This document shows positions 1 through 43,200 of a stretch of DNA of 64,000 bases, one piece after another. A program made the position numbers and the translations under genes. Positions within the stretch are counted from its first letter, which is position 1. The number at the start of each line of letters is the position of its first letter. Source of the DNA: Panorpa germanica (Eukaryota; Arthropoda; Insecta; Mecoptera; Panorpidae); assembly GCA_963678705.1 (NCBI GenBank), contig OY783208.1, positions 4,340,001 through 4,404,000 on the forward strand, in the 5' to 3' direction. The notes beneath the pieces are model-generated. The model made no database searches, was not told the origin of the DNA, and saw nothing but the letters and a program-made list of their open reading frames with translations.

Positions 1-3000
1 CCAACATACAGCAAAGACGACTACTAGATTCTAGATAGTGGGGAAAAGAAACAACGAGTCATTATGAAGATAAAGAGGAATTTTGTCATAATAATCTAGC
101 CGCCTTCAATGCTGAAAGATGCATCCCAACATACAGCAAATAGGACTACTGGATTCTAGATAGTGGGGAAAAGAAACAACGAGTCATTATGAAGATAAAG
201 AGGAATTTTGTCATAATAATCTAGCCGCCTTCAATACCGAAAGATGCATCCCAACATACAGCAAATAGGACTACTGGATTCTAGATAGTGGGGAAAAGAA
301 ACAACAAGTCAATATGAAGATAAAGAGGAATTTTGTCATAATAATCTAGCCGCCTTCAATGCCGAAAGATGCATCCCAACATACAGCAAATAGGACTACT
401 GGATTTTAGATAGTGGGGAAAAGAAACAACGAGTCATCTTGAAGATAAAGAGGAATTTTGTCATAATAATCTAGCCGCCTTCAATACCGAAAGATGCATC
501 CCAACATACAGCAAATAGAACTACTGGATTTTAGATAGTGGGGAAAAGAAACAACGAGTCATCTTGAAGATAAAGAGGAATTTTGTCATAATAATCTAGC
601 CGCCTTCAATACTGAAAGATGCATCCCAACATACAGCAAAGACGACTACTGGATTCTAGATAGTGGGGAAAATTAACAACGAGTCAATATGAAGATAAAG
701 AGGAATTTTGTCATAATAATCTAGCCGCCTTCAATACTGAAAGATGCATCCCAACATACAGCAAAGACGACTACTGGATTCTAGATAGTGGGGAAAATTA
801 ACAACGAGTCAATATGAAGATGAAGAAGAATTTTGTCATAATAATCTAGCCGCCTTCAATGCCGAAAGATGCATCCCAACATACAGCAAAGACGACTACT
901 GGATTCTAGATAGTGGGGAAAAGAAACAACAAGTCAATATGAAGATAAAGAGGAATTTTGTCATAATAATCTAGCCGCCTTCAATGCCGAAAGATGCATC
1001 CCAACATACAGCAAATAGGACTACTGGATTCTAGATAGTGGGGAAAAGAAACAACGAGTCATCTTGAAGATAAAGAGGAATTTTGTCATAATAATCTAGC
1101 CGCCTTCAATACTGAAAGATGCATCCCAACATACAGCAAAGACGATTACTGGATTCTAGATAGTGGGGAAATGAAACAACGAGTCATCTTGAAGATAAAG
1201 AGGAATTTTGTCATAATAATCTAGCCGCCTTCAATACTGAAAGATGCATTTCAACATACAGCAAAGACGACTACTGGATTCTAGATAGTGGCGAAAAAAA
1301 ACAACGAGTCATTATGAAGATGAAGAGGAATTTTGACATAATAATCTAGCCGCCTTCAATACTGAAAGATGCATCCCAACATACAGCAAATAGGACTACT
1401 GGATTCTAGATAGTAGGGAAAAAAAACAACGAGTCATCTTGAAGATAAAGAGGAATTTTGTCATAATAATCTAGCCGCCTTCAATGCCGAAAGATGCATC
1501 CCAACATACAGCAAATAGGACTACTGGATTCTAGATAGTGGGGAAAAAAAACAACGAGGCATTATGAAGATAAAGAGGAATTTTGTCATAATAATCTAGC
1601 CGCCTTCAATGCCGAAAAATGCATCCCAACATACAGCAAATAGGTCTACTGGACTCTACATAGTATGGAAAAAAAAACAACGAGTCATCTTGAAGATAAA
1701 GAGGAATTTTGTCATAATAATCTAGCCGCCTTCAATGCCGAAAGATGCATCAGAACATACAGCAAAGACGACTACTGGATTCCAGATAGTGGGGAAAAGA
1801 AACAACGAGTCATTATGAAGATGAAGAGGAATTTTGACATAATAATCTAGCCGCCTTCAATACTGAAAGATGCATCCTAACATACAGCAAATAGGACTAC
1901 TGGATTCTAGATAGTGGGGAAAAAAAACAACGAGTCAATATGAAGATGAAGAGGAATTTTGACATAATATATCTAGCTGCCTTCAATACTGAAAGATGCA
2001 TCCCAACATACAGCAAATAGGACTACTGGATTCTTGATACTAGGGAAAAAAAACAACGAGTCATCTTGAAGATAAAGAGGAATTTTGTCATAATAATCTA
2101 GCCGCCTTCAATACTGTAAGATGCATCCCAACATACAGCAAAGACGACTTCTGGATTCTAGATAGTGGGAAAAAGAAACAACGAGTCATCTTGAAGATAA
2201 AGAGGAATTTTGTCATAATAATCTAGCCGCCTTCAATACTGAAAGATGCATCCCAACATAGAGCAAATAGGACTACTGGATTCTAGATAGTGGGGAAAAA
2301 AAACAACGAGTCATTATGAAGATAAAAAGGAATTTTGTCATAATAATCTAGCCGCCTTCAATGCCGAAAGATGCAACCCAACATACAGCAAAGACGACTA
2401 CTGGATTCCAGATAGTGGGGAAAAGAAACAACGAGTCATTATGAAGATAAAGAGGAATTTTGACATAATAATCTAGCCGCCTTCAATACTGAAAGATGCA
2501 TCCCAACATACAGCAAATAGGACTACTAGATTCTAGATAGTAAGGAAAAAAAACAACGAGTCATCTTGAAGATAAAAAAGAATTTTGTCATAATAATCTA
2601 GCCGCCTTCAATACTGAAAGATGCATCCCAACATACAGCAAATAGGACTACTGGATTCTAGATAGTGGGGAAAAAAAACAACGAGTCATCTTGAAGATAA
2701 AAAGGAATTTTGTCATAATAATCTAGCCGCCTTCAATGCTGAAAGATGCATCATAACATACAGCAAATAGGACTACTGGATTCCAGATAGCGGGGAAAAA
2801 AAACTACGAGTCATTATGAAGATAAAGAGGAATTTTGTCATAATAATCTAGCTGCCTTCAATGCCGAAAGATGCATCCCAACATACAGCAAATAAGACTA
2901 CTGAATTCTAGATAGTGGGAAAAAAAAACAACGAGTCATCTTGAAGATAAAGAGAAATTTTGTCATAATAATTTAGCCGCCTTCAATGCCGAAAGATGCA

Positions 3001-6000
3001 TGCCAACATACAGCAAATAGGACTACTGAATTCTAGATAGTGGGAAAAAAAAACAACGAGTCATTATGAAGATAAAGAGGAATTTTGTCATAATAATCTA
3101 GCCGCCTTCAATGCCGAAAGATGCATCCCAACATACAGCAAATAGGACTACTGGATTCTACATAGTGAAGAAAAAAACAACGAGTCAATATGAAGATAAA
3201 GAGGAATTTTGTCATAATAATCTAGCCGCCTTCAATGCTGAAAGATGCATCCCAACATACAGCAAAGACGACTACTGGATTCTACATAGTGGTGAAAAAA
3301 AACAACGAGTCATTATGAAGATAAAGAGGAATTTTGTCATAATAATCTAGCCGCCTTCAATGCCGAAAGATGCATCCCAACATACAGCAAAGACGACTAC
3401 TGGATTCTAGATAGTGGGGAAAAAAACAACGAGTCATCTTGAAGATAAAGAGGAATTTTGTCATAATAATCTAGCCGCCTTTAATGCTGAAAGATGCATC
3501 CCAACATACAGCAAAGACGACTACTGGATTCTACATAGTGGGGGAAAAAAACAACGAGTCATCTTGAAGATAAAGAGGAATTTTGTCATATTAATCTAGC
3601 CGCCTTCAATGCCAAAAGATGCATCCCAACACACAGCAAAGACGACTACTGGATTCTAGATAGTGGGGAAAGAAAACAACGAGTCATCTTGAAGATAAAG
3701 AGAAATTTTGTCATAATAATTTAGCCGCCTTCAATGCCGAAAGATGCATCCCAACATACAGCAAAGACGACTACTGGATTCTAGATAGTTGGGAAAAGAA
3801 ACAACGAGTCATCTTGAAGATAAAGACGAATTTTGTCATATTAATCTAGCCGCCTTTAATGCCGAAAGATGCATCCCAACATACAGCAAATAGGACTACT
3901 GGATTCTAGATAGTGGGGAAAAAATACAACGAGTCATTATGAAGATAAAGAGGAATTTTGTCATAATAATCTAGCCGCCTTCAATGCCGAAAGATGCATC
4001 CCAACATACAGCAAAGACGACTACTGGATTCTAGATAGTGAAAAAAAAGAAACAACGAGTCATCTTGAAGATAAAGAGGAATTTTGTCATATTAATCTAG
4101 TTGCCTTCAATGCCGAAAGATGCATCCCAACATACAGCAAATAGGACTACTGGATTCTAGATAGTGGGGAAAAAATACAACGAGTCATTATGAAGATAAA
4201 GAGGAATTTTGTCATAATAATCTAGCCGCCTTCAATGCCGAAAGATGCATCCCAACATACAGCAAATAAGACTACTGGATTCTAGATAGTGAAGAAAAAA
4301 AACAACGAGTCATTATGAAGATAAAGAGGAATTTTGTCATAATAATCTAGCCGCCTTCAATGCTGAAAGATGTATTCCAACATACAGCAAATAGGACTAC
4401 TGGATTCTAGATAGTAGGGAAAAAAAAGCAACGAGTTATTATGAAGATAAAGAGGAATTTTGTCATAATAATCTAGCCGCATTCAATACCGAAAGATGCA
4501 TCCCAACATACAGCAAATAGGACTACTGGATTCTAGATAGTGGGGAAAAAAACAACGAGTCATTATGAAGATAAAGAGGAATTTTGTCATAATAATCTAG
4601 CCGCCTTCAATGCTAAAAGATGCATCCTAACATACAGCAAAGACGACTACTGAATTCTAGATAGTGGGGAAAAAAACAACGAGTCATTATGAAGATAAAG
4701 AGGAGTTTTGTCATAATAATCTAGCCGCCTTCAATACTGAAAGATGCATCCCAGCATACAGCAAAGACGACTACTGGATTCTAGATAGTGGGGAAAAGAA
4801 ACAACGAGTCATTATGAAGATAAAGAGGAATTTTGTCATAGTAATCTAGCCGCATTCAATACCGAAAGATGCATTTCAACATACAGCAAAGACGACTACT
4901 GGATTCTAGATAGTGGGGAAAAAAAACAACGAGTCATTATGAAGATAAAGAGGAACTTTGTCATAATAATCTAGCCGCCTTCAATGCTGAAAGATGCAAC
5001 CCAACATACAGCAAAGACGACTACTGGTTTCTAGATAGTAAGGAAAAAAAACAACGAGTCATCTTGAAGATAAAGAGGAATTTTGTCATGATAATCTAGC
5101 CGCCTTTAATGCTGAAAGATGCATTTCAACATACAGCAAAGACGACTACTGGATTCTAGATAGTGGGAAAAAGAAACAACGAGTCTTCTTGAAGATAAAG
5201 AGGAATTTTGTCATAATAATCTAGCCGCCTTCAATGCCGAAAGATGCATCTTAACATACAGCAAATAGGACTACTGGATTCTAGATAGTGGGGAAAAAAA
5301 ACAACGAGTCCTCTTGAAGATAAAGAGGAATATTGTCATAATAATCTAGCTGCCTTCAATACTGAAAGATGCATCCCAACATACAGCAAATTGGATTACT
5401 GGATTCTAGATAGTGGGGAAAAAAAACAACGAGTCATTATGAAGATAAAGAGGAATTTTGTCATAATAATCTAGCCGCATTCAATACCGAAAGATGCATC
5501 CCAACATACAGCAAATAGGACTACTGGATTCTAGATAGTGGGGAAAAAAAACAACGAGTCATCTTGAAGATAAAGAGGAATTTTGTCATGATAATCTAGC
5601 CGCCTTCAATGCTGAAAGATGCATCTCAACATACAGCAAAGACGACTACTGGATTCTAGATAGTGGTGAAAAAAAACAACGAGTCTTCTTGAAGATAAAG
5701 AGGAATTTTGTCATAATAATCTAGCCGCCTTCAATGCCGAAAGATGCATCCCAACATACAGCAAATAGGACTACTGGATTCTAGATAGTGGGGAAAAAAA
5801 ACAAGGAGTCATTATGAAGATAAAGAGGAATTTTGTCATAATAATCTAGCCGCATTCAATACCGAAAGATGCATCCCAACATACAGCAAATAGGACTACT
5901 GGATTCTAGATAGTGGGGAAAAAAAACATCAAGTCAATATGAAGATAAAGAGGAACTTTGTCATAATAATTTAGCCGCCTTCAATGCTGAAAGATGCAAC

Positions 6001-6779
6001 CCAACATACAGCAAAGACGACTACTGGATTCTAGATAGTGGGGAAAAAAAACAACGAGTCATTATGAAGATAAAGAGGAACTTTGTCATAATAATCTAGC
6101 CGCCTTCAATGCTGAAAGATGCAACCCAACATACAGCAAAGACGACTACTGGATTCTAAATAGTTAGGAAAAAAAACAACGAGTCATTATGAAGATAAAG
6201 AGGAACTTTGTCATAATAATCTAGCCGCCTTCAATGCTGAAAGATGCATCCCAACATACAGCAAAGACGACTACTGGATTCTAGATAGTGGGGAAAAAAA
6301 CAACGAGTCATTATGAAGATAAAGAGGAATTTTGACATAATAATCTAGCCGCCTTCAATACTAGAAGATGCATCCCAACATACAGCAAATAGGACTACTG
6401 GATTCTAGATAGTGGGGAAAAAAACAACGAGTCATTATGAAGATAAAGAGGAACTTTGTCATAATAATCTAGCCGCCTTCAATGCTGAAAGATGCATCCC
6501 AACATACAGCAAATAGGACTACTGGATTCTAGATAGTGGGGAAAAAAAACAACGAGTCCTCTTGAAGATAAAGAGGAATTTTGTCATAATAATCTAGCCG
6601 CCTTCAATGCTGAAAGATGCATCCCAACATACAGCAAAGACGACTACTGGATTCTAGATAGTGGGGAAAAAAAACAACGAGTCCTCTTGAAGATAAAGAG
6701 GAATTTTGTCATAATAATCTAGCCGCCTTCAATGCTGAAAGATGCAACCCAACATACAGCAAATACTGGAGCTACTGGA
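1..6779. repeat. 125-bp tandem satellite array
   Basis: The same unit recurs every 125 bp (the string CCAACATACAGCAAA starts at 1, 126, 251, 376, 501 and onward), giving about 54 copies. The array continues off the left edge and stops against a LINE near 6780. Units differ at a few diagnostic sites: AAATAGGAC or AAAGACGAC, CATTATGAAG or CATCTTGAAG or CAATATGAAG, and short A-run length changes. Open frames of 61-79 codons (1665, 3111, 3414, 4664) run across one and a half units. Because 125 is not a multiple of 3 and most units carry stops, I regard them as chance, not genes. Confidence 0.97.
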
Positions 6780-6789
6780 ATACAATTTA

Positions 6790-9700
6790 GTATTAACAGG
6801 AAAAGTTTTAATCTCATCTAATATATCACTATTCAATTTTATCTTTCTGAACTATAATTTATGCATTTAAATATAATATGATTCAAGGTTCCTTCTTCAC
6901 CACAGTGACATCTATCGTCAGATTTAATATTAATTTTATACAGGTGAGCTGTAGTTTTGCAATGATTACTTTTGATTCTGATTATAGTTGACATAATTTT
7001 GCGGGCCTCATCTCTTCTTACTTAAATTTGGATGTAACATATAATAATCTTTTCCTTTTATCTGACCTTTGTTAATGAAATCTTAGTTTCTCAAATTGAA
7101 GTTTAATTTTTGACTATATTAAAAATTTCATTTGAAGGTAATTTCACTTTCATCTCAATTTCCAAATTTATTGATTCCTTTGCCAATTTATCCGCAATTT
7201 CGTTTCCTCTTATTCCACAATGTCCTGGTATCCACATAAATTTTATGGTATTATTCCTATTTATTGTATTGAAATACAGCTCCTTAATTTTGCATGTCAA
7301 AATATTATTATTTGATTTGTTATCATTAGAATTTAAATTTTTTAAAACACTTAAATAATTCGTTATTATTATAATTTTATTATTGTTGATATTTTCATTA
7401 ATTTCCAATGCTTTTATCATTTATTTATGCTAATTTTTCTCCAATGTAATAGCAAACTTTGTTATTTCATTTAAATTTATCAAATAATAAATGTATTTGT
7501 TCATATATAGCAAATCCTGCTTTATTTCTTTCTAAATCAATGGACCAATGCATCTGTATATATTATTTTTGTAAAATTTGTATTAAATTGATGCATTAGA
7601 TTTAAAAACATTTCATTATTTATCGCCATATTAAATGATTTTGACAATAATTGTGTGTTCATATATATATCCATAGGTTTAATTAATGATTCAAAAGGAA
7701 TAGAGTATATAGGAGATTTGGAATTTCTTTGTATATTTAGATCCTTTAATTTCATGTAACTATTTATTAAAATAGGTTTATTCTTTTTGGTCCAGTAAAA
7801 AGAGTTTTGAATATATGTAGATAATAACTTAATTTTATCAATAATTTGAAATTTCGATAATGATTCACATTTAACATAAAATTTATCACTAAGGAGTTGG
7901 TTTCTAAATTGTAATAGAGCTATATTAGATTCAGCTTAAAGTATATGAGTTGGAGTTGAAGTCATGCAACCTAAAGCGATTCTTAAGCTTCTGTATTGTA
8001 TTCTATCCAATTTTAGTAATCTTGATTTGGAAGCTGTACTAATTAATATATTCGAATAGTCTAAATGTGAACTTATATTTGCTTGATAAATTTGTAGTAG
8101 AGAGATAGGATGAGCTCCCCATTTACTTCCTGCTAGACTTCTTAAAACAATTATTCCTCTGTTGAATTTAAGAATTATTTTATCAATTTCAAAGCTCCAA
8201 GTAGATTTACAATCAAATCAAATACCTAAAAATTTTGCGCTATTTGATATAATAATATTTTTGTTATTATATATTATCCTCGGACTTGATATAATTTTGT
8301 GTCTAGTAAAAATGACAGCTTGAGATTTTTCTACTGAGATTTCTAATTCAATTTTGTCTAATATATCTCTTAATTTGCATAATTTCTTGTTAATTCTCTT
8401 CCTTAAACATTCTATGGATGGGCCAATACTATATAAATCAATATCATCTGCAAATTGTAAAATAAATGAGTGGTCGTCTTTTAATTTAAAAATGTCTCTA
8501 GAATATATTGTGTACAGTGGACTAAGAATAGATCCTTGAGGTAGGCCTTTATTGCAGGTAAATGATCCTATTAAATTTTCTTCATTTCTTACATAAAAGG
8601 ATCTCAATTCTAAATATGACATTAACCAATTTGTAATTTTGCTGGTTATTCCAATTTCTCTTAATTTCAGTTGTAGGTTAGGATATGTAACTGCATCATA
8701 AGCTCCCTTAATATCTAAGAACACAGCTGGCATGTATTTATTGCAGCTATATGTTTTTGAATGTCTAGATTGAATATATTTAAGCTGTCATGCACACTTC
8801 GATTTTTCCTAAATCCAAATTACGAATCTGATAATTTATTGTTGTGTTCTAAATACCATTCTAATCTGTTTTTCATAATATTTTCCATTGTTTTGGCTAC
8901 GCATGATATTAAAGTAATTGGTCGATACGATGATGCTACTTCAGGGTTCTTTCCAGATTTTAAAATAGGAACAATAATATGATTTTTCCAATCGCTAGGA
9001 ATTATTCTGGTATTGAATATATTATTAAAATTGTTAATTTGGGGCAATTTTGGCGCTTTTAGGTAAATTTTGGATCATTTCATATGAGATTCTGTCAATA
9101 CCAGTACTTGTTTTTCTTTTTATGATTTAAACTGTATATTTATTCTTCTAACTCTATAGATTTATCTAAAAATTCTACTACTTTAGAATTTAGAATATAC
9201 GGCCTTGGAATGATATTGTAATCACCACAATAATTTCTAGCAAACTCTTCAATCCAGTCATTATTCATATTTCTGGTGTTCTGATTTTTTTTCAGTCTTG
9301 ATAATTTATGAACTACTCCCCATATTAATTTAGCTGGAGTTTTTGGCTTAATATTTTCACAAAATTTCTTGTATTCCTCCTTCCTTCTTATCCTAAAATA
9401 TTTTTGTGTGTTTGCTTGTTCCTTTTTAAAATTTAGATAATTTTCCATATTAGAATTTCTATTAAATTTAGTTAAAGCTAATCTTCTTTTAGCAACCATT
9501 TTATTACAATTGCTGTCCCACCATAGGGTTTTTCATGTTTTGGGTCCTTATTATAAATTTTATTGTGTGGAATACTTTCCTGCGGTGACTAATTCACGGT
9601 ATTAATTAAATGCTCATAGCCGATATATAAATTTGAACTATTAACAAGTTTATTGGATATAATATTTTGATATTCGTTCCAGTCAGCTTTTTTTAAATTT

Positions 9701-10430
9701 CTTCTAGTGATTTAACTCCTTGTTCTACCTATGTCAACATTATTTAAATTGGTTAATTAAAAACTATGGGATAATGATCACTTCCCATGCTGTCATTTAA
9801 TACCTTCCAGTCTATTAACATGTGCATTATTCTAGGAGTAAAAAGGGTTAAATCCAAGAAACTATCTCTTCTATAAGGATGGTGGACTCTTGTAGGACAA
9901 TCATTGTTAGCTATATGAAGAAGTTCTTCATCAATAAATTTATTCAGTTCTTGTCCTTCGTAATTTATTAAGTTGTTTATATTCCATGATGGATGAAGTG
10001 AATTGAGATCTCCCGTTAGTATCACTGGTAATTTAATTAGTCTGTACATTTGTTTCCATTTTAAACTGTCAATTTTGTGTCCTGGAGGAACGTATATTGA
10101 TGTAATACATATTTCGATATTATTTAATTTTGTACTAACTGCAGTAAGTTCCATATTGTTTACTGATTTAGTGATATGTAATCTTTTATATATTATGCTT
10201 TTATGTATAATAATGGCCGTACCTCCATAAGGATTTGCTCTTCCAATTTGAATTCTATCATCCCTTTCTAAGTTATATCCTCTTATATTAAAATTTATAT
10301 TTTCTCGTAAAAATGTTTCTGAAATCAAAGCTATATGTATATTTTGCGTTTTTAATAAATTTTGTAGATCGTCTTTTTTGTGTCTAATTTACTTTAAATA
10401 TTTACGTTTAATATTTACTTCTTTAATTTT
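6790..10430 (-). pseudogene. LINE ORF2 (endonuclease, RT, RNase H), broken
   Basis: Open pieces lie at 9753-10328 (endonuclease: ISETFL near the start, GDLNS, and the terminal SDHYPI motif), 9140-9499 (linker), 8820-9047 and 8218-8733 (RT: YRPITLIS, the FLDIKGAYD aspartate, GLPQGSILSP, catalytic FADD), 7537-7755 and 7103-7420 (RNase H: YTDA, WIPGHCGIRGNEIADKLAKE). About 6860-7010 encodes the C-terminal knuckle CHCGEEGTLNHI with a following cysteine. The third acidic RNase H position reads ITN here but ITD in the fragment at 60110, so the catalytic aspartate is lost in this copy. Function in life: nicking target DNA and copying the element RNA into it. Confidence 0.9.
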
Positions 10431-12039: not shown

Positions 12040-12150
12040 ACTGATTCCAGATTAATTAGTGAATTATTTAAATATTTAGATATTTGTAAAATAGAATTAT
12101 AAAATGTTAAATATAATACGAATAAAAGTCAAGGCAAACAAATAAAAAAT
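12040..12150 (+). mobile_element. 3' end relic of the same LINE family, plus orientation
   Basis: The sequence matches the reverse complement of the LINE 3' UTR and tail at 51880-52025, including the terminal motif AATAAAAGTCAAGGCAAA and an AAAT-rich tail. Here it is oriented forward, opposite to the adjacent long LINE. Confidence 0.75.
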
Positions 12151-12945
12151 ATATATATTTACATTACTTTATATTACCACATATCACATTAATCACGAAA
12201 TTCATTTTAGTTTTTACATTATTTCATTTAAAGCTAGCAGTCTTACATTTTGTATTATATTTTTAGTCTTATATATTTTACATTACATCATATTATCTCA
12301 TTTATATTTATATATATTTATATTTATATTAACAGTGTCACAATTATATCACACAATAGTATCACATTTGTATTAATTGGTCTAGCTATCAGAAAACGCA
12401 GAGTAGAGTTTCAATGGGCCTGGACTTATTTCGGTTACTATTTGTGACTCAGCGTTTAGAGCCCTTCAAAAATAGCCAAATTCATCAGCTTCTGCAGATG
12501 GGGTATCATTTGCGTTTGCATTTTCTTCAATTCACCATCTACATGCCTAGCTTCATTTTTTGCAGCACTTTTTTGTTTGTTGTTGCGCTTTCTTTTATAT
12601 TTTCTAATTCGGACTGAAATAAAAAATAAATCAAGATTAATTTTGGTTCTTAAATGAAGTCGTTTGTTAGAAGTTTCACAATTATGTTCTTATGACTATA
12701 GTGGATTCGAATTACGAGTCTCAATGTATTTTACGAAACATTAAATAACAACAGCTTGCAGTTACGTCCCGACATTGAGAGTATTGAGAATGGCGATAAA
12801 CATTGCAGAAATAACTTTGTGCAATATTTCATTAATGAAGCAAGATACAAAAAACACATTTTGGATAATTATGCTTACTAAAAATATGAAATAAATTTTT
12901 TGATTATTTACTAAAGCTATGCATTTGCCTACCATTTCTTGTCTT
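12150..12945. other. Non-coding stretch with a duplicated 160-bp block
   Basis: 12150-12310 is nearly identical to 16160-16320; both follow a LINE tail. The rest (12310-12945) is AT-rich. A hydrophilic minus-strand reading between 12400 and 12610 is broken by stops and I could not identify it. Confidence 0.6.
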
Positions 12946-14199
12946 CTATCCTCGATCTCTATCTCGATCTTGATTCTTCATAGCGCCGACGTTAGCTTGA
13001 GAAGGCACGGTTTCAATGCACCTAAAAGTGGACGAATAAGGTGCAAATGGAAACGGAAAATGCCATTTCCAAGATGCGTAGCCCGTTTGGTAATATCGAA
13101 GAATCCAATTTAGTCCAATTAAGTACTCAGAAAGTACCACTTTTTTGTGATCTGAAACTACATTAGCTTGTCGCCTATTTTCCATTGGTAATGAAAATGT
13201 AGCATTTATTTCTCCCATTATTGATTTGAGCAGAAATAAATTAATTTCTCCACCTTGCGATAAATATTGGTTATTCCTCGTAAAACACTTTTTATAGATA
13301 CTGACTAAGATTTCCATACCGTTGTTCCAAATGTCAATATCTGGTAAGGGAGGCAAAAAATCGTTTCCCAAGAAAAATGTAAGGACGATATAGTCGTCTA
13401 GAGCTTTCTCGAAGTCATTTACATTTGGTATTTGAAGTTCATACCTTAAATGTTCTCTTAACAATTCTAATTTTACTAGAATCAAGTTCTTGTATGGGTT
13501 GCGGTTTTGCCCAGATTTCGTTTTTATATACTTCTTTCTTAATATAGTTATATTCGGATCATGGCTTGCCAACCCTAACATAATCAAGTCTGCATCTTCA
13601 CCGTACAGAACATGCCTAGTACCGGCGTTATAGTTTGCCTCATTTTTTTGGGTTCTGATAAAACTGGCGATTTTATGTTCGCCTTCTCCAGGAACCGAGT
13701 CGTCTGATAGAATAAACTGAACATTTTTTAGATTTAGATTGTTCATTTTTCGTTTCTGTACGTAACCTTCTACGCAATTTGTTAACTTTTTCATGAAAAC
13801 CGTTCCCGGGAGTATTCTTTGACTTTTAATATTATTACTCTTATTTTTTGAAAAATAATTGATGGTCTTCACTGTTTTGGATTTGTACATTTTAGCATTC
13901 GGCACAGCTCCGTCAACTGCAATATAAACTAATTTTCTTGGATTGACAATTCCGATTATAGAATCCAGAGCCATTTCTATTTTTAGAAAAGTCTTTGCTT
14001 CATTTTCAGGCGATTTATCTTCTGGATCGTGGCACGTGTGAAAAATACCATTTGCGTCTATGTACAGGTTATCAAATTCAACACTATTTGAGATTTCTTT
14101 AGTACAACTTAATTGATTTTTATATTTCTGAACAACACATTCCTTAATAACAGTAGGATATTTTTGAGATAACCACGTGTAAAAACCCTTAATTCCCAT
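12946..14199 (-). CDS. Compact intronless XRN-family 5'-3' exoribonuclease
   Basis: A complete 417-codon ORF starting MGIKGFYTWLSQKYP, the typical N-terminus of Xrn1/Xrn2 proteins. Acidic residues of the XRN active site are visible in order: IDANG (about residue 48), AVDGAVPNAKM (about 114), PGEGEHKI (about 170), GEDADLIMLGL (about 200) and GNDFLPPLPD (about 278). The C-terminal signature WILRYYQTGYASWKWHFPFP also fits. Xrn enzymes degrade 5'-monophosphate RNA processively. Oddities: there are no introns, and only about 330 residues precede the WILRYY block because the usual segment between conserved regions 1 and 2 is greatly shortened. The arginine-rich stretch after AKM, which binds the 5' phosphate in Xrn1, is replaced by YKSKTVKT. 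The tail ends in DRDRDRG. The start ATG has A at -3 and G at +4. It may be an old retrocopy, a diverged host paralogue, or virus-derived. The family call is secure; activity is not. Confidence 0.88.
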   Translation of the reverse strand: MGIKGFYTWLSQKYPTVIKECVVQKYKNQLSCTKEISNSVEFDNLYIDANGIFHTCHDPEDKSPENEAKTFLKIEMALDSIIGIVNPRKLVYIAVDGAVPNAKMYKSKTVKTINYFSKNKSNNIKSQRILPGTVFMKKLTNCVEGYVQKRKMNNLNLKNVQFILSDDSVPGEGEHKIASFIRTQKNEANYNAGTRHVLYGEDADLIMLGLASHDPNITILRKKYIKTKSGQNRNPYKNLILVKLELLREHLRYELQIPNVNDFEKALDDYIVLTFFLGNDFLPPLPDIDIWNNGMEILVSIYKKCFTRNNQYLSQGGEINLFLLKSIMGEINATFSLPMENRRQANVVSDHKKVVLSEYLIGLNWILRYYQTGYASWKWHFPFPFAPYSSTFRCIETVPSQANVGAMKNQDRDRDRG

Positions 14200-14514: not shown

Positions 14515-15640
14515 AAAATCAATAGCTACTGGCCTATATCTTTAACAAACACCTTATGCAAATTATTAGAAAGGCTCATATATACCCTGGATACACAAAA
14601 TTTCTTAGAACCTAGAAAGTGACTTTTGTAAGCGTCATTCTAAACTAGATCAAATAGTTAATCTGGAAACGGAAATATATAATAGCTTTACAAATAACCG
14701 GAAAACTGTATTAATTTTCTTAGACAATGACAAATCTAACGATCGAACATGGAAATACAACATATTAAAGGCACTGGAATTATGGAACATATAGGGTCAT
14801 CTAGTCCACTTCGTTAAAAATTTAATGAAAACAAGAACATTCAGTGTGAATTTAAATAACAATAAATCTCAAGAATTCGAACAAGAAAACGGCGTTCCTC
14901 AAGGTCCATTTCTTAGAGTAACATTGTTTCTAAATTTAATAACCAATTTAATCAATAATATTAAAAATCCCGTAAAAGCAGTCTTTCATGCTGACGACTT
15001 AGTTATTTACTGCAGTAACAAGGATTTAAAAATAGTTAAAAAAAAAATAAACTGCTTAGAAGAACTGCCTAATAAAACATGATATAAGGTTTCTAACAGC
15101 AAAAGTAAATACAGCCTTTGCTGCATCTGAAGCTTATTTTTCATTTAAGACTGACAATATACAACGAAGAACAGGATAATATCATGTAATAATTGGTAAT
15201 ATCATATAATAATTGGGCAAATGATCAGAAAACTCTAATGCATATTTTTCAAATTTTGATCCGCTCTGAATAGATTACGGTGGAATTATATATTAAACTG
15301 CAAATAAAAACATTCTAAAGCACATTTATAATGCAGGTTTAAAACTAGACACTGGTGCATTTAGAACGTCTCCTGTAAAGACCCTTTACGCCATAACTGA
15401 TGATCCACCTCCATCCACTTAAACGAGACCAATTAACTCTATATTATTATGCATCAGTCATATCCAATTCCACAAAGATAAATTTCAGAATTACAATAGC
15501 TCCACAATAAGTCTCACTATACCACAGAAACTCAAAACTGGAAGAACCGCTTCTAATCAGATTAAAAAATCTCAAAGACAAACATTTTTTACCTAACATT
15601 CCAAGAACAATTCCAACAATCGTCAATAGCATCGCACCAT
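14515..15640 (+). pseudogene. Decayed LINE reverse transcriptase fragment
   Basis: Broken plus-strand reading carries RT landmarks: YWPISLTNTLCKLLER (about 14525-14575), a degenerate IFLDNDKS palm segment (about 14715), an open piece at 14825-15082 with NGVPQG and HADDLVIY (a YxDD-type motif), and near 15340-15390 LDTGAFRTSPVKTLYAI, a typical post-RT LINE block. Several stops and shifts make it inactive. It appears to be a different LINE from the one at 6782-11930. Confidence 0.75.
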
Positions 15641-15834: not shown

Positions 15835-16108
15835 TTAAGAAACATTTACAAGACTGTGTTCGATTAGGTCTAACACCAGTTAGAGCGATAGTCTCAGATG
15901 AAAGTTCAAATATACTTGAGTTTAAAAACTTTTAGAGAAAAATTAGAAACGCATGTGTTATTTATGCAGACTTTGAAATTGTTGACAAATGTTGAAACCA
16001 ACGGAGTATAACAAACACATATTGCACATAGCGTTGGATATTTTGTAAAATATTCACATGATGACTCTGAATCTTATTATAATACTTATCGTGGGGAAGA
16101 TTGTGTTC
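15835..16108 (+). pseudogene. Relic of a family-B DNA polymerase of Polinton or virus type
   Basis: A forward reading gives a histidine/cysteine segment (KKHLQDC), a stop, then CVIYADFE (about 15950-15973). After a frame change it continues HIAHSVGYFVKYSHDDSESYYNTYRGEDC. The YADFE motif followed by a YRGEDC-like block is the pattern of protein-primed PolB copies common in arthropod genomes as Polinton/Maverick or endogenous viral remnants. It is short, with at least one stop and one shift, and is dead. The assignment rests on motif memory. Confidence 0.5.
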
Positions 16109-16165
16109 AGAGGTTTGTTGGTGGCTATGACAAATAAAAGTCAAGGCAAATAAATAAATAAATGA
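16105..16165 (+). mobile_element. LINE 3' tail relic
   Basis: Contains TTGTTGGTGGCTATGACAAA and AATAAAAGTCAAGGCAAATA with repeated AAAT. This matches the 3' terminus seen at 51880-51960 (reverse strand) and 12110-12150. Confidence 0.7.
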
Positions 16166-16320
16166 AAAAAAAATATATTTACATAACTTTATATTACCAC
16201 ATATCACATTAATCACGAAATTCATTTTAATTTTTACATTATTTTATTTAAAGCTAGCAGTCTTACATTTTGTATTATATTTTTAGTCTTACATATTTTA
16301 CATTACTTCATATTATCTTT
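16160..16320. repeat. Second copy of the 160-bp block that follows a LINE tail
   Basis: Nearly identical to 12150-12310, including AAAGCTAGCAGTCTTACATT. Both copies sit immediately downstream of a LINE tail. This suggests duplication of the locus, or that the block belongs to an element. Confidence 0.75.
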
Positions 16321-22200: not shown

Positions 22201-25200
22201 TTATATTGGGGCGACTCACTAAAACCGACCGACCTACTGGGGGAACTCCTATTTGACTGGGTCTGGATGGACTGACCAAGAATCCCTTATTTCCAAGGTT
22301 TATATAGTTTAAAAAGTCTTTGTTCGAATATATGATCTCATTTGAACTCTAGCTATGTTTATCTTAAATCAAAATACCGCTTCCTCAACACTTCTTTGAA
22401 TTTTGGTATTTGGTTCTAATATAAGCATTATTTGTGCTCTCTACGTGCTTATGAACAAAAGGTTTAGTTCATTAATATTTCTTTTAAAAGTTAATGTAAA
22501 TACTACATCGCCAGTTTGAAGAATTAAACAAATTATAATAATATGCGTCTTGGTTCTATTGATAAAGCAATACTTAATCTAAATATTATATCCGCCACTT
22601 TGACTTCTTAAAATCATTAAAAATCTACGTTTTAGTTTATATATGAATCTTTACACTGGTTCCTAAATAGTTATTGTCAATAATTAATGAATCTATGGGA
22701 CTGTTACATACTGTTAGACACCCAGCATAATGGTCTACTTGTTTTTAGGTTCCCCAGGATGTTTGTGGAAGTTTTTAGTAACCTTTGCAACTCTAGCCTT
22801 AATGAGCCACGTGGTCTTCCAAGTATTGCTAGCAGCAGCGCCACATTTGCTCGACCTCGAGAAATGTAGCTTTCAAGAGAAGTTATTAAGACAAATAGGA
22901 TTAATATCGTTTACTGAACTTCCACCACTAGAAATCGTAAGATGGGTAGCCCCAGAGGTTGTCATCTTCATAATGTCCATTTTCTTTTACGAGGTGTCAT
23001 ACAAAATGAATTTGCCACCGAAAGTAAAGAAACCAAAAAAGAAAAAGTCAAAATTAAATGAAACTGATACAGAACCTAAAGAAAAGCATAAGAAGAAGAC
23101 CGAGTTCAGGGAGGTCTCGCAAGAAGAGAAGGTTTGGTTAGACTTGAAACAACATGACGAGCCCAATTTATTTCATGTGAACTTCGGTAAATTTGTTGTG
23201 CTGGTTTCGCTTTGTGTGACATCCAGTATTCGTCCTTCTATTTTTGGAGGGCTCTATTTCTTAACGTTCATTTTCTTCATGACGACCTGGTCCATCGCTA
23301 TGAACACAGATCGGTTGTACATGGTCGCCTGCTACCTGAACAGTCTCATTTGTGCCGTCCATTTGATCGGGATATTCATGTACCAGCTTCAGTACCTCCA
23401 GGAGAGCATTGCCATCACTCATCTGTTTATCCGGCTGTTTGCAATGACTCCTTACTACACTATGTCCTGCGAGGATGATCCCAGAGAATTCATCTACAAT
23501 CCTAACTGCTCCTGGACCGTCGTCGTGAATCCAATCGCTCTTGGTTTAATGTACCAACTCCTGGTGATTGAAGGGAAACTGTTGGTGGCCAAAATTCGCG
23601 CCAAGAGACTTGTTTCGTTGCATAAACGTCTGACTCACGAAGTACCTTCGGAAGTAGATTCTAAGTCGTCTTCCCACGCTAAAGTAGATCGCTGGCTCAG
23701 TGGAAGGACCCTGAGTGTAGCAGATGAAGACTCTTTGAACATCCAGAATTTAGTCAGGCCTAGTTATCGCGCATCAGTAAGTCAATTTAAATCTTTCTAA
23801 TAAATTAGTCTAATAAAGTTCATATTTTCAAAAAAAAATTCTCCTTCTTCTCATGCCTTTTTCCAAAATATTTCTCCTAATTTGCTGTCTACCTTTTGTA
23901 CATATTCCCATTAACATTAGGCTTCTTCTAATTTATTCTCCTACCCTTGTATCTTTCTCCTTACTTCCGTTATCCACACATTTCCGTTTCATCTTCTCCA
24001 ATACTGATTCTTTTTGGAATTTCTTTTATTATTTGCTTTTATTTCGAGTCAGTGTACTATAGAATTATTCGGTGCGATATAGTGACTTTTAGACTACTTC
24101 TCTTAATCCTCTATCTTCATGTTCCTTATTCCTCCTTATCGTTCCTTTTTGTTTGTATCTCCATCTCTAACCTTTGCCTTTCTTGTCTCCTCTCGACAAA
24201 CCCTATATTATCTGTTGCCTATCCTACCTCATTTCTGTGTTTATTTTCCCTGCTCCTGCCTTCAGTAAGTAAATTTTAGTGATGGGACTGATACAAACTA
24301 TACACGAGTAGTGCAAACCTGCTTCCGTTAACTGTCTTCGTGTTCCTAAGCTATCTTTTACACGACCTGATAAGATGTTTCCTTTTTATCAAAGATTGCT
24401 CTTGTTTTTCATCTACCGTTACACAGCACCTTACGGTCATCAATACAACACAAGAACATTCTTAAAGCATTTTAATTTCTATAAAACTGTCCTACATATT
24501 GATAAAATTGGCTGCTAGGGTCTCAAATGTTCAATTATTTTTTAATAACTCCTTATATGTTAAGAGATATTAACAATTAAAAAAGTCATTTTGTCTCTTT
24601 GACTAATAAAGGTATTTAACGTTAAAAAGATAGCATACTTGACACAGAACTCTTATACATATACAAACAAATAACTGACCTATCCCTTAGTCCCTTTATA
24701 TCTTAATGTTACGTCATAAATATGGCCAACATTTCTAGCGCTAAAACTACAATTCAAATGTTTAATTGCTATATCTCCGTCAACATTTAGGTATTTAATA
24801 AAATAGGCACGCCAATACACATTTATTAACATCAAGTTTAATCAATAAATGAAAAATCGACGCCTTAAATAGGAGCACACTAAAGATCTTACTATCAGCA
24901 TTCTTCATTTATTTTAAATCATATTGTTCTTCTTCATGCTTCATAGTTCAAGATCCCAGACCCGGCAGACATCACTTTCTTTTCAATGAACAAAATGTTT
25001 AAGATTAAGTAGTGTTAGTATGTACAATGGTCGTGCCTACCTGCTAACTTGACCAGGCGCTTATTTTCTAGGTATCAGGTAATTAAGGTTTATGTCTCAC
25101 TCACTCTCATGCGCACGTATAATGCCTCCTTCCTCCTACTCATAGCGGAATTAAAATTGGGTTTAGGGGATGTTTTGTTTTTAATGCTTCTCGTTTACCC

Positions 25201-37200: not shown

Positions 37201-40200
37201 TGGTCGATTTTTCAATTGTTGATTGAACTTGATGTTAATAAATGTGTATTGGCGTGTCTATTTTATTAAATATCTAAATATTGACGGAGATATAACAATT
37301 AAAAGTTTTAATTGTAGTTTTAGCGCTAGAAATAGTCGATTATATTTGTATGACGTGAAATGCATTTCAACGTCAGTTATTTTTTGAGTAGGTCAGTGCT
37401 GTGGTAATGTTTTGTAGCTGTTGGTAGTCGAAATAATCAAGTCAAGTCAAAGAATAATAAGTTTTTATTTTATTTAACTCTGTTACGGCAGACATAATAT
37501 TGAAATTTGATTGTTCCTTGAAATAGCTGTAAATAATATTTGATATTTTGATATATAAATACATATAGCAGATATTTATGAGCTGTAAGATTGGTAACCT
37601 TACACAAGGATTGTGATGTCACATGCACTTGGAATGTGTACAACCTTGAATCCCTTTAATAATTAAAGAGACAAAATGACTTTTTTAATTGTTAATATCT
37701 CTCAACATATAAGGAGTTATTAAAAAATAATTGGACATTTGAGGTTCTAGTAACCCACTTTATCAATATATAGTACACTTTTATAGAAATTAAGACATAG
37801 GACACAAGCCCATTACCGAAAATATTAATAATACAACGAAATAAAACAGTAGAAAAATGACCAAAATAATATAAATTAAATATGTAATATATGCTTTATT
37901 TATTTATATTAAAATTATTTAAAAGATATAATAACTGTAAATACATTTCATTTAAATAAGAAGACGTCGTCCACATAATACATATTCATTTTTATTTCTG
38001 TGCAAAACAATATCGCTAGAAAAAGAGGTTTCTGACGTTAACTCATATATTAACCTATATTTTAATAAAAACAAACATTCCCAAAATTCACTCTATACTC
38101 TAAATGCTAGAGTTTTCTAATACAACTAAATGAGAATTATTATGTTGTTTTAATTCACCCAAACTTCTAAATGACTTATTACAAATACCACAAGAAAACG
38201 GTTTCATTTCTTTATGGGTACTTTGATGTAATTTTACCGCCTTCAAAGACTTAAATGCTTTGCTACAAGTGCCACATAAGAACGCTTTAACATCTGTATG
38301 AGTAATTTTATGTTGGTTTAACTCCCTTACAGTTTTAAACGATTTATTACAAATACCACATGAAAATGGTTTTAAATTTGAATGGGTAATTTTATGTTGT
38401 TTTAAATCCGTTATACTTTTAAACGATTTATTACATGTGTTACACAAAAACGGTTTAATATCTGTATGTGTAATTTTATGTTGTTTTACCTGTCGTAAAC
38501 TTTTAAATGCCTTATGACAAATGTCACACGAAAAAGGTTTACTGTCATTATGTGTGATTTTGTGTCGTTTCAATGAAAATAACGTATTAAATGATTTCTG
38601 GCAGATATCACATGAAAATGGTTTTAAATCTGTGTGTGACATTTTATGTATTTTTAACTCGTATAATCTTTTAAACGATTTGTTACATACATCACATAAA
38701 TACGGTTTCATATCCGTATGCGTAAGTTTATGTTGTTTCAGTACATGTTTGGTTTTGAATGATTGTTTGCAGATGTCACATAAAAACGGTTTAACGTTTA
38801 TATGTGCAATTTTATGCTGTTTTAATGCCGTGGAACTTTTAAAACCTTTTTTACAAATGTCACAAGCAAATGGGCGTTCCCTGGTATGAATACGTTTATG
38901 AACAACTAACCCACTGTTATAATGGTAAATTTTGTCACATTCATTACAAGAATATAACTTCCTTCCGGTGTGAACTCGTAAATGATTCAACAGTTCTCTC
39001 GCTTTTTCAAACGATTTATTACAAACATCACAGATATAATTTAATTCTTCGGATTGCCTGCATTCTTGTGTGTCGAAAATATAACTTTCATTATCACCAA
39101 TTACATTTCCTCGACAATTAGGCGATTCCTTAAGGTGCTCCAGCAACTTATAGTTGTCCATAAATATGTCACCACAGTGGTCACACAGGACAACAGATAA
39201 ATTAAAATCGGGTTCATCTTTAATGTCATCGATCTCTTTTTTAATTTCTGTTCTTAATTGAACACATAATACTTCTTCTTTAACAGAATATTCCTCTTCT
39301 GATTTTATTTTTATATTCAAATCCATCTTTTGTATTTCCGGTGTTTCATTAAAAATATCCTTTTCCAATTTTATTTCGTGTATTTCGTCCGACGCCATTT
39401 TTAATTAGAAATGAAAACGATTCTGAAACACAATTAGTGTTTGTTATTAATTTGTATTATTTAATGGTAAAGCAAAAGACTTAAAGCTAGTAAAAAGACA
39501 ACACTATTTTTGTTTCCATATGTAAAATGATTAATAGAATGTATTTGTATGGCGAATCAAATCAGTACATGAAATTAATAAAAACTTTGTGAAATTAAAT
39601 CATTCATAGTATAAAATATTATATTAATATGTGAATTAATCATATATTTATCAATAGAGAGTAATAATTTATCACCACTACACTAATTTAGTATTAATTA
39701 AACAATCACAGTACCTAATAAATCACATAACCTAATAAATAAATTGCTGTTAATTTCTAATCCATAAGTTTCTATCTTATTTTCAACCAATATTATAAAA
39801 GTATATATATTTAATTGTTAATAAAAAAAACTTACAATAAAAGGCTACAATTAATGAAAAAGTTTATAATAAAATTATTTCAGGAAAGATGGTAGTAACT
39901 GTCAAAGACAAGTACCTGATAATAATGTTCCATAATAAATTATATACTAATTGAATTCATATTACCTGTGAACACAACAAAAAATCTATAAAAGTAATAT
40001 CAATTTACCTGTTTAATATATTTAATAGTGAACAATCGCAGTATTTTTTTAGCTTCTTCTTGTAAAATGTGCTAATAAAAAATAAATAAAAACGTCAAAC
40101 ACGCCATGTTTTTTCTAATCTCAATATTGAAGGTTAAGGGGCTAGTGTACTCATTTTTTAGAGGTCGTTCTATTAATTTTTGATAGAAGTAAAGGTATAT

Positions 40201-43200
40201 GAATATATTATTTTTTTAAATATTTAAGTTTATGGAAAGTTTAGTAAAGCTATTTGAAAGTTAAATATCTGTTATGCAGACCTTGTTTGTTGTATTCGTT
40301 TTGCGTGTGACGTCATAAGAAATAAATGGGTTTGTGTCCTACATATGTCTTAATTTCTATAAAACTATACAATATACACACATGTTCAATTATTAGTTAA
40401 TAACTCGTTATATTTCAGGATATATTAACAATGGGCTTGTGTCCTCATTTTTTAGTGGTCGGTTTTTCAATTGTTGATTGAAATTAAAGTTAATAAATGT
40501 GTATTGGCGTGTCTATTTTATTAAATATATAAATGTTGACGGAGATATAGCAATTAAAAGTTTGAATTGTAGTTTTAGCGCTAGAAATGGTCGGCCATAT
40601 TTGTATGACGTGAAATGCATTTTAAAGTCAGTTATTTGTTGAGTAGGTCAGTGCTGTGGTAATGATTTGTAGCTGTTGGTAGTCAAATAATCAAGTCAAA
40701 TCAAAGAATAATAAGTTTTTATTTTATTTAACCCTGCTAAGGCAAACATAATATTGAAATTTTATTGTTCCTTGAAATAGCTGTAAATAATAATAAATAA
40801 ACGGGATTCAACGTTATAGTATATTCCAAGACATGCGTCATTATGTCCGCTAAGTTGCTATCTCTTTTAAACAATAGACCCTAAAAGAGATAGCATGTTC
40901 AACACAGAACTCTTAGGCCCTCCGCACACGAGTCGACTGATTGCAAACAAGTCAAGCCGTGTTTCTTGACTCTTTAAAATTATTAACAATACCATAACAG
41001 GGGATTTCATTGTGTCGTATTTGTATATATGTATGTATTTAAATACTTTTGAATAGTATTTGTGCACATCGCTGCTCATGATGTCACCATCAGAAGCATG
41101 CCCTGCGACTGCGAAAACGTACTCAAAACCAGTTTAGTTCGTTCGTGCCGTGTGTTATCCCACTCGTATACACGTTCGATCTCTCACTAACAACACAGTT
41201 GCATTCTCATTCGGTTCAGGAAAATTCGGGGCTACGGATTACAATTAGTCGACCCATGTGCGGATGGCCTTATTCATAGAAAAAATAACTAATCTACCAT
41301 TAATATGTTACGTCATAAATATTGCCGACATTTATATTGCTAAAACTACAATGGGCTTGTGTGCTCATTTTTTAGTGGTCGATTTTTCAATTGTTAATTG
41401 AAATTGATGTTAATAAATGTGTATTGGCGTGTCTATTTTATTAAATATCTAAATGTTGACGGAGCTATAGCAATTAAAAGTTTGAATTGTAGTTTTAGCG
41501 CTAAAAATGGTCGGCTATATTTGTGTGACGTGAAATGCATTTTAACGTGAGTTATTTGTTGAGTAGGTCAGTGCTGTGGTAATGTTCTGTAACTGTTGGT
41601 AGTAAAATAATCAAGTCAAGTCAAAGAATAATAAGTTTTTATTTTATTTAACCCTGTTACGGCAGACATAATATTTGAATTTTATTGGTCCTTGAAATAG
41701 CTGTAAATAATATTTGATATTTTGATATATAAATACATATAGCAGAGATTTATGAGCTGTAAGGTTGGCAGCGGTTGTGATGTCACATGCATTTATATAT
41801 CCTTAACATTTATAATTAATTAATGCAGTTAATATCTTCTTACATATAAAGAGTTATTAACAAATAATTGGACATTTGAGGTTCTAGTAACCCACTTTAT
41901 CAATATATAGTACACTTTTATAGAAATTAAAACATAGGACACAAGCCTATTGCAATATCCCCGTCAATATTTAGTTCACAAGCTAATTACTATTTTTTTT
42001 TCTTTTTTTTTTATCATGTATCTTTTGATGTTTCTTCACATCACTTGAAGTTGCAAAAGTTTTATTACAAACGTTACAAGAAAACGGTTTCACTTCTAAG
42101 TGATATATTTGATGTCGTTTTAAATCACTGGAAGTTGCCAAGGTTTTACTACAAACGCTACAACAAAACGGTTTCACTTCTAAGTGACTATTTTGATGTC
42201 GTTTTAAATCACTTGAACTTGCAAACGTTTTACTACAAAAGCTACAACAAAACGGTTTCACGTCTAAGTGACTAATTTGATGTTGTTTTAAATCATTTGA
42301 ACGTGCAAATGTTTTATTACATTCATTACAAAAGAAAGGTTTCACACTTAAGTGATAGGTTTGATGTGTTTTTAGTTTGCCTGTTGTAGCAAATGTTTTA
42401 TTACAAATGCTACAAGAAAATGGTTTTACACTTAAGTGAATTATTTGATGGTTCTTTAAAACACCAGCACTTACAAATGTTTTATTACAAACGCTACAAG
42501 AGAATGGTTTAACATCTAAATGAGTGTTTTGATGTTGTTTTAAAGCACTTAAAAACGCAAACGTTTTCTTGCAAACATTGCAAGGAAAAGGTTTGAAATC
42601 AACATGACTAATTCGATGTTTTCTTAATAAATCTGATGTTACAAATTCTTTTTTACAAGTATTACAAGTAAATTTACGTTCTCCGGTATGTTTGCGTTTA
42701 TGAATCAGTAAATTATAGTTCATACGAAACGAGATGTTACATTGAGTACATAAATGTTTCTTTTCATAGTGAATACGTAAATGCTTTTTAATTTCCGCGG
42801 GATTTTCAAACGACTTAAAACATATATCGCATACATAATTGAATTGTGAATCAATAATATTTTGATTATCTATATTACGATTTATCGGTATTTCGACATC
42901 TTCCCTAAAATCAGGTAAGGCAGGTAAATTGGACGGGTTTTCGTCGGGCTCGAATTTAATTTTATCAAGTGACCAATTACATGAATCAGCTACATTTTCT
43001 TCTTTAATTTCATAATTTGATGGTTCTAATTTTACATCACGCTCCTCCTCTTCTGTTTTTATTTTTAGATCCATCTTTATCTTTTTTATTTGCTCTCTGT
43101 TGTCTTCAAACTTTGTGAAATACAAAGAAATTTATAGTTTTCTGAAAATAAAAGATAGCAGAAAGATTTTAGGTAATTATTCGATAAAGCTACACCTTTT

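Follow-up and report, generated by a model that had tools for sequence, protein, structure and literature searches.

An intact, intronless XRN2-like open frame in four local copies in Panorpa germanica

An open frame for a compact XRN exonuclease lies among fragments of transposable elements in Panorpa germanica, within a 64,000-nucleotide stretch of contig OY783208.1 (C5:4340001-4404000 in our coordinates; hereafter the window). It raises the question of where so small an XRN came from, and whether selection still maintains it as a nuclease. A first-pass annotation, made from the letters of the window, had proposed a viral or retroposed origin.

The open frame and its active site

The frame occupies 12946..14199 on the minus strand, from an ATG at 14199 to a TAG stop at 12946-12948, and its 417 sense codons are free of internal stops, exactly as first annotated. 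Pfam assigns the product, here termed mini-XRN, to XRN_N (E 3.1e-65, 220 bits against a curated cut-off of 22.9) and XRN_M (E 8.8e-30, 104 bits). In 300 simulated 8-kb stretches (first-order Markov, window composition), no stop-free frame exceeded 245 residues; together with the Pfam scores, this argues that the frame is not a chance occurrence. The XRN_N domain, corresponding to conserved region 1 (CR1), covers residues 1-222 (13534..14199, minus strand) and holds D48, H54, D96, K103, E172, E174, D202 and D204. A partial XRN_M match follows at residues 262-333 (13201..13416, minus strand) and contains D280 within a GNDFLP motif. Among the 14 distinct PDB sequences matched, the best relative is 5fir, an XRN2, and by its sequence mini-XRN is an XRN2-class protein. 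The organism names that we attach to the PDB chains in the comparison are in part our own assumption.

Three features are described as crucial to the XRN active site, namely the metal-binding acids, a basic pocket for the 5'-phosphate and a base stack made by a His and a Trp (PMC9512700, section 4), and PMC10590902 also gives their roles and lists the pocket residues as Lys, Gln, Arg and Arg. According to PMC9512700, the His and Trp sandwich the first three bases in XRNs, and in Chaetomium thermophilum Xrn2 they are His61 and Trp706. Our residue numbering was checked against the C. thermophilum protein, and the acids, a feature taken from PMC9512700, were mapped by us. Both protein versions encoded by the copies described below carry all seven (D48, D96, E172, E174, D202, D204 and D280), in agreement with the earlier claim that the acidic catalytic motifs are kept. 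H54, which aligns with His61, is likewise kept in both versions.

The pocket site, at residues 103-111 (13867..13893, minus strand), reads K-x-x-K-S-K-x-V-K in place of K-x-x-Q-Q-R-x-R-R, so that the leading Lys is kept and Q-Q-R-x-R-R is replaced by K-S-K-x-V-K. The latter motif is intact in all 13 other aligned XRNs with letters at this site (a further row, L050, is a fragment), and the reported replacement of the arginine patch is therefore real. At the positions that we take to correspond to the Lys/Gln/Arg/Arg set, K103 alone is retained and the others are S107, V110 and K111.

Homology to XRN2 stops at XRN2 residue 601, about 50 residues into conserved region 2 (CR2) and ahead of the stacking Trp, which in C. 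thermophilum Xrn2 we located by counting as the W of AWQGV. What is left of CR2 is a remnant at residues 354-403 (12991..13140, minus strand) matching XRN2 551-601; the rest, including the Trp half of the base stack, is absent from the frame. No match to XRN2 601-742, the Trp706 region, was found within 224 kb around the frame (best E 4.3). The CCHC zinc finger of animal XRN2 CR1 is also gone, since there is no Cys between residues 142 and 305, a region that is shortened. The long linker between CR1 and CR2 is missing too, which bears out both the description of the protein as a miniature and that of the stretch between the conserved regions as cut down. Judged from the alignment, of the three active-site features mini-XRN keeps the acids, loses the pocket and keeps half of the base stack. 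The remaining core may be unstable after the loss of CR2.

Relationship to XRN2 and the origin of the frame

Over the frame, mini-XRN is 42.5% identical to the XRN2 of P. germanica itself, 41.7% to human XRN2 (in a sequence that we supplied and take to be correct), 39.0% to that of C. elegans and 38.7 and 36.2% to two fungal proteins. The corresponding values are 32.9-35.9% for five XRN1 proteins and 27.0-29.0% for four XRNs from viral contigs. At eight sites diagnostic of XRN2 against XRN1, five residues are XRN2-like, none is XRN1-like and three are neither; the 20 sites separating animal from fungal XRN2 divide 8:3, and the 93 separating the P. germanica from the human protein divide 18:15. 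XRN1/Pacman has the same catalytic acids and His as mini-XRN, but is set apart by its lower identity and by the diagnostic sites. With XRN2/Rat1, mini-XRN shares CR1 by sequence, the seven acids, the stacking His and five of the eight diagnostic sites, whereas XRN2/Rat1 possesses introns, the pocket, the zinc finger, the CR1-CR2 linker and a full CR2 with its stacking Trp.

Trees of 16 and 18 rows both placed mini-XRN with animal XRN2 (support 95/94 and 96/93), where its branch is very long, at about 2 changes per site. The trees were built without L001/L051, L047-L049 and L054, and L052 and L053 entered the second only; L001/L051 are one contig, which looks eukaryotic and has an intron, and L047-L049 are the same contigs as L004, L002 and L003. 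The three ordinary animal XRN2s fall on their own side of a branch (68/74) in the first tree, so that mini-XRN appears, weakly, beside rather than among them. Tying it to the P. germanica XRN2 alone cost 2.72 log units (p 0.225). The 68/74 placement and the 18:15 division weigh against a firm claim of an insect XRN2 parent. Of the phylogenetic comparison with XRN1, XRN2 and viral XRNs proposed earlier, the grouping with animal XRN2 therefore emerged, and a firm position inside insect XRN2 did not.

The viral origin raised by the first-pass annotation is not supported. Had mini-XRN been acquired from a large DNA virus encoding a compact XRN, this would explain why its frame lacks introns and is small, as in the viral-contig XRNs (L003 and L004, which are whole, and L002 and L050, which are cut); these also have a single open frame and, where covered, the catalytic acids. 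Grouping mini-XRN with the viral rows lowered the likelihood by 5.48 and 7.95 log units, and with p-AU values of 0.114 and 0.099 the test does not reject it. Nevertheless, identity to the four viral-contig proteins lies far below that to the host XRN2, the phosphate pocket is intact in the three whose sequence covers it, and L002, L003 and L004, unlike mini-XRN, run through CR2 past the region of the stacking Trp. Furthermore, the mini-XRN protein alone, used as a query, found no relative in viral contigs or phages, and Pfam scans of ten window pieces detected no virus gene. Given these data and the grouping with animal XRN2, we consider acquisition from a virus highly improbable. A scan of prokaryote genomes returned three XRN matches, all in MAG records, two of which (L052 and L054) we judge to be eukaryotic in appearance and the third (L053) virus-like. 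L053 is a 623-residue open frame for a virus-like XRN on a contig assigned to a Flavobacteriales MAG, where it is presumably a contaminant.

The host XRN2 gene, as spliced here, has introns after codons 25, 270, 372, 496 and 548. Those after codons 25, 372 and 548 sit in stretches that mini-XRN retains and are absent from it (the other two sit in stretches that are lost), so the frame is truly intronless, as had been noted. An old retrogene is the simplest account of this intron loss combined with the affinity to XRN2, and of the two origins first suggested it is the retroposed one that our results favour. Any poly(A) tail and target-site duplication of such a retrogene would be expected to have eroded. 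Mini-XRN is thus most likely an old intronless duplicate of XRN2 that would have arisen by retroposition and was recently amplified with its surroundings. It is unusual for a retrocopy to lack the 3' rather than the 5' end; a prematurely ended transcript may be the source of the missing 3' part. Codon 605 closes exon 6 of XRN2, and the homology breaks off four residues before it. Among the literature matches listed, in the parts consulted, none describes a pocket-less or amplified XRN2 duplicate.

Local amplification and constraint

The genome (464 Mb in 249 contigs) was searched with the protein, which gave ten matches, comprising four complete open copies and six pieces of the intron-bearing XRN2 gene on C4 and the XRN1 gene on C6. 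Using the XRN_N family as query yielded 12 matches, none of them outside the four copies, XRN2 and XRN1. The copies all lie on the minus strand of C5 within 111 kb (c1 at 4243230, c2 at 4276235, c3 at 4314875 and c4, the copy in the window, at 4352949), and among the best candidates scored (11/11 and 10/10) there was none outside this cluster in the 464 Mb. Self-comparison of 224 kb revealed long duplicated blocks, one of 22 kb common to c1 and c2 (99.7% identity) and one of 11 kb common to c3 and c4 (98.2%). Over 1230 coding bases, c1 and c2 show no difference, and c3 and c4 are separated by three changes, all silent, so that there are really two protein versions. It may be that c1 and c2 are two haplotypes assembled in series.

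The duplicated segments also carry part of a Piezo gene. Its N-terminal exon, identified by Pfam at 22718..23797 on the plus strand, recurs 38 kb away at C5:4324737-4325816 beside c3. The long duplicated blocks and the recurring exon indicate that copy number rose by segmental duplication and not by repeated arrival. The recent arrival suggested earlier is better recast as a recent local amplification of an old gene.

Pieces of LINE elements lie on both sides of the frame. Downstream is a broken LINE with reverse-transcriptase and endonuclease pieces (8221..10388, minus strand), and upstream, on the opposite strand, a reverse-transcriptase piece (14795..15079, plus strand), both recognised by Pfam. 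A direct repeat of 163 bases, 94% identical between 12136-12298 and 16156-16318, also brackets mini-XRN and is probably an old repeat element. One could read these flanks as the remains of a transposable element that carried mini-XRN as cargo, but all four copies lie in one cluster that segmental duplication explains, with none found elsewhere in the genome, and we regard such a carrier as extremely unlikely. A DNA-polymerase-like piece at 16012-16134, which we had taken for a possible Polinton, has no Pfam match, and that reading was dropped.

Comparison of c1 and c3 gave a measure of constraint. Of 1230 coding bases 41 are substituted between them, every one in the first 675, and there is not a single indel. 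From codon 226 on they are nearly identical, and the 3' flank shows one substitution and two gaps in 981 aligned bases, one of the gaps being a 13-base difference at the end of the frame. This near identity from codon 226 through the 3' flank suggests gene conversion. The 13-base difference extends the frame of c1 and c2 by 57 codons, with a plausible donor and acceptor downstream; these delimit a hypothetical 3' intron (GTAGGC...TTTCAG, 12614..12932, minus strand), read by eye just past the frame and reached in frame only in c1 and c2. A 77-codon frame at 12459-12689 was considered as a further exon and rejected, its best Pfam match (E 0.025) being below the cut-off.

Over codons 1-235 (the first 705 bases), dN between c1 and c3 is 0.047 and dS 0.118, giving a dN/dS of 0.40 (Fisher p 0.014; binomial 0.004-0.011). 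In the 5' flank, 877 bases could be aligned and show 92 substitutions and 12 indels, with 65 of the differences in a stretch of unrelated inserts; in the better aligned part 22 of 577 bases differ, a divergence that dN does not undercut. It is the high dS that makes the ratio low, dN itself being at the level of the flank. Most likely, mini-XRN is weakly constrained, with a dN/dS of about 0.4.

A longer view comes from 110 columns invariant across ten cellular XRN1 and XRN2 proteins (one row supplied by us, and the D. melanogaster and Kluyveromyces chains as deposited). At the 106 that could be aligned, mini-XRN keeps 72 residues and has lost 34, against 56 matches to the host XRN2 at 203 sites variable among XRN2s. 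Invariant sites are thus kept far more often than variable ones, a pattern produced by long-term constraint and not by a dead copy. The c1/c2 version keeps 70 of the 106, having lost two more (E41 and S126, both to Lys), and also carries Cys at G51, where all five XRN2 rows have Gly. Were invariant sites kept at random, the chance of retaining all seven acids would be about 0.06 (0.065), or 0.14 for the five that fall among the 106 sites. Two acids drop out of that set because the crystal chains from fly and Kluyveromyces each carry a change at one acid, presumably an engineered one. As evidence for catalytic constraint, retention of all seven acids is suggestive only.

These comparisons bear on whether mini-XRN is an early-stage pseudogene, a once functional XRN2 retrocopy that was copied with its surrounding segment and has yet to meet a stop. 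Such decay would fit its position between LINE pieces and near a 125-bp satellite, the inclusion of the copies in duplicated blocks of 11-22 kb, the truncated CR2, the invariant residues lost (with two more in c1/c2) and a dN similar to the divergence of the flank. In contrast, about 42% identity to XRN2 combined with a 417-codon open frame calls for long constraint, conserved sites are retained far oftener than variable ones, and c1 and c3 have accumulated 41 substitutions without an indel at a dN/dS below 1. We consider an incipient pseudogene possible, if on the improbable side.

Proposed activity

Expression, fold, activity and substrate are here projected from the sequence. Mini-XRN would be reduced to the two-metal catalytic domain, stripped of the zinc finger, the 5'-phosphate pocket, the stacking Trp and the greater part of CR2. 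Should the protein be produced, two-metal hydrolysis of RNA is most likely retained. Loss of the pocket would remove strict selection for a 5'-monophosphate, and with the processive ratchet missing the enzyme would be slow and distributive, resembling a FEN nuclease, and would perhaps act on XRN2 substrates. Our overall reading, to which we assign a probability of about 0.5, is of an old, fast-evolving, intronless XRN2 duplicate, most likely a retrogene, present in four local copies and encoding a minimal two-metal nuclease core that is non-processive and independent of a 5'-monophosphate. Mini-XRN may represent an altered nuclease, or else a gene in the process of being lost.

A bolder version of the altered-nuclease idea, which we think unlikely, is an XRN under selection without the monophosphate pocket or processivity, amplified as a mini-nuclease for RNA ends closed to other XRNs (5'-OH or triphosphate), with germline or antiviral RNA decay as conceivable settings. 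Alternatively, mini-XRN could be a non-catalytic mimic that binds the partners or substrate RNA of XRN2 and so tunes it. Without the pocket and Trp, turnover would presumably be crippled, and XRN2 itself is dependent on XTBD-family binding partners (PMC10511037). However, a mimic has no need of the seven metal-binding acids, all of which are kept, and this role seems quite unlikely.

Mini-XRN is a natural separation of XRN active-site features, seen in none of the 13 other sequences with letters at the pocket. If expressed and active, it would test the purpose of the pocket and of CR2; if not, it would show an essential RNA-decay gene seeding amplified remnants.

Two further features of the window may be recorded. 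The 125-base satellite occupies positions 1-6779 in about 54 copies (93% match) and adjoins the broken LINE. Long single-frame C2H2 zinc-finger genes lie on the minus strand at 38103-39404 (Pfam) and 41986-43131 (read by eye).
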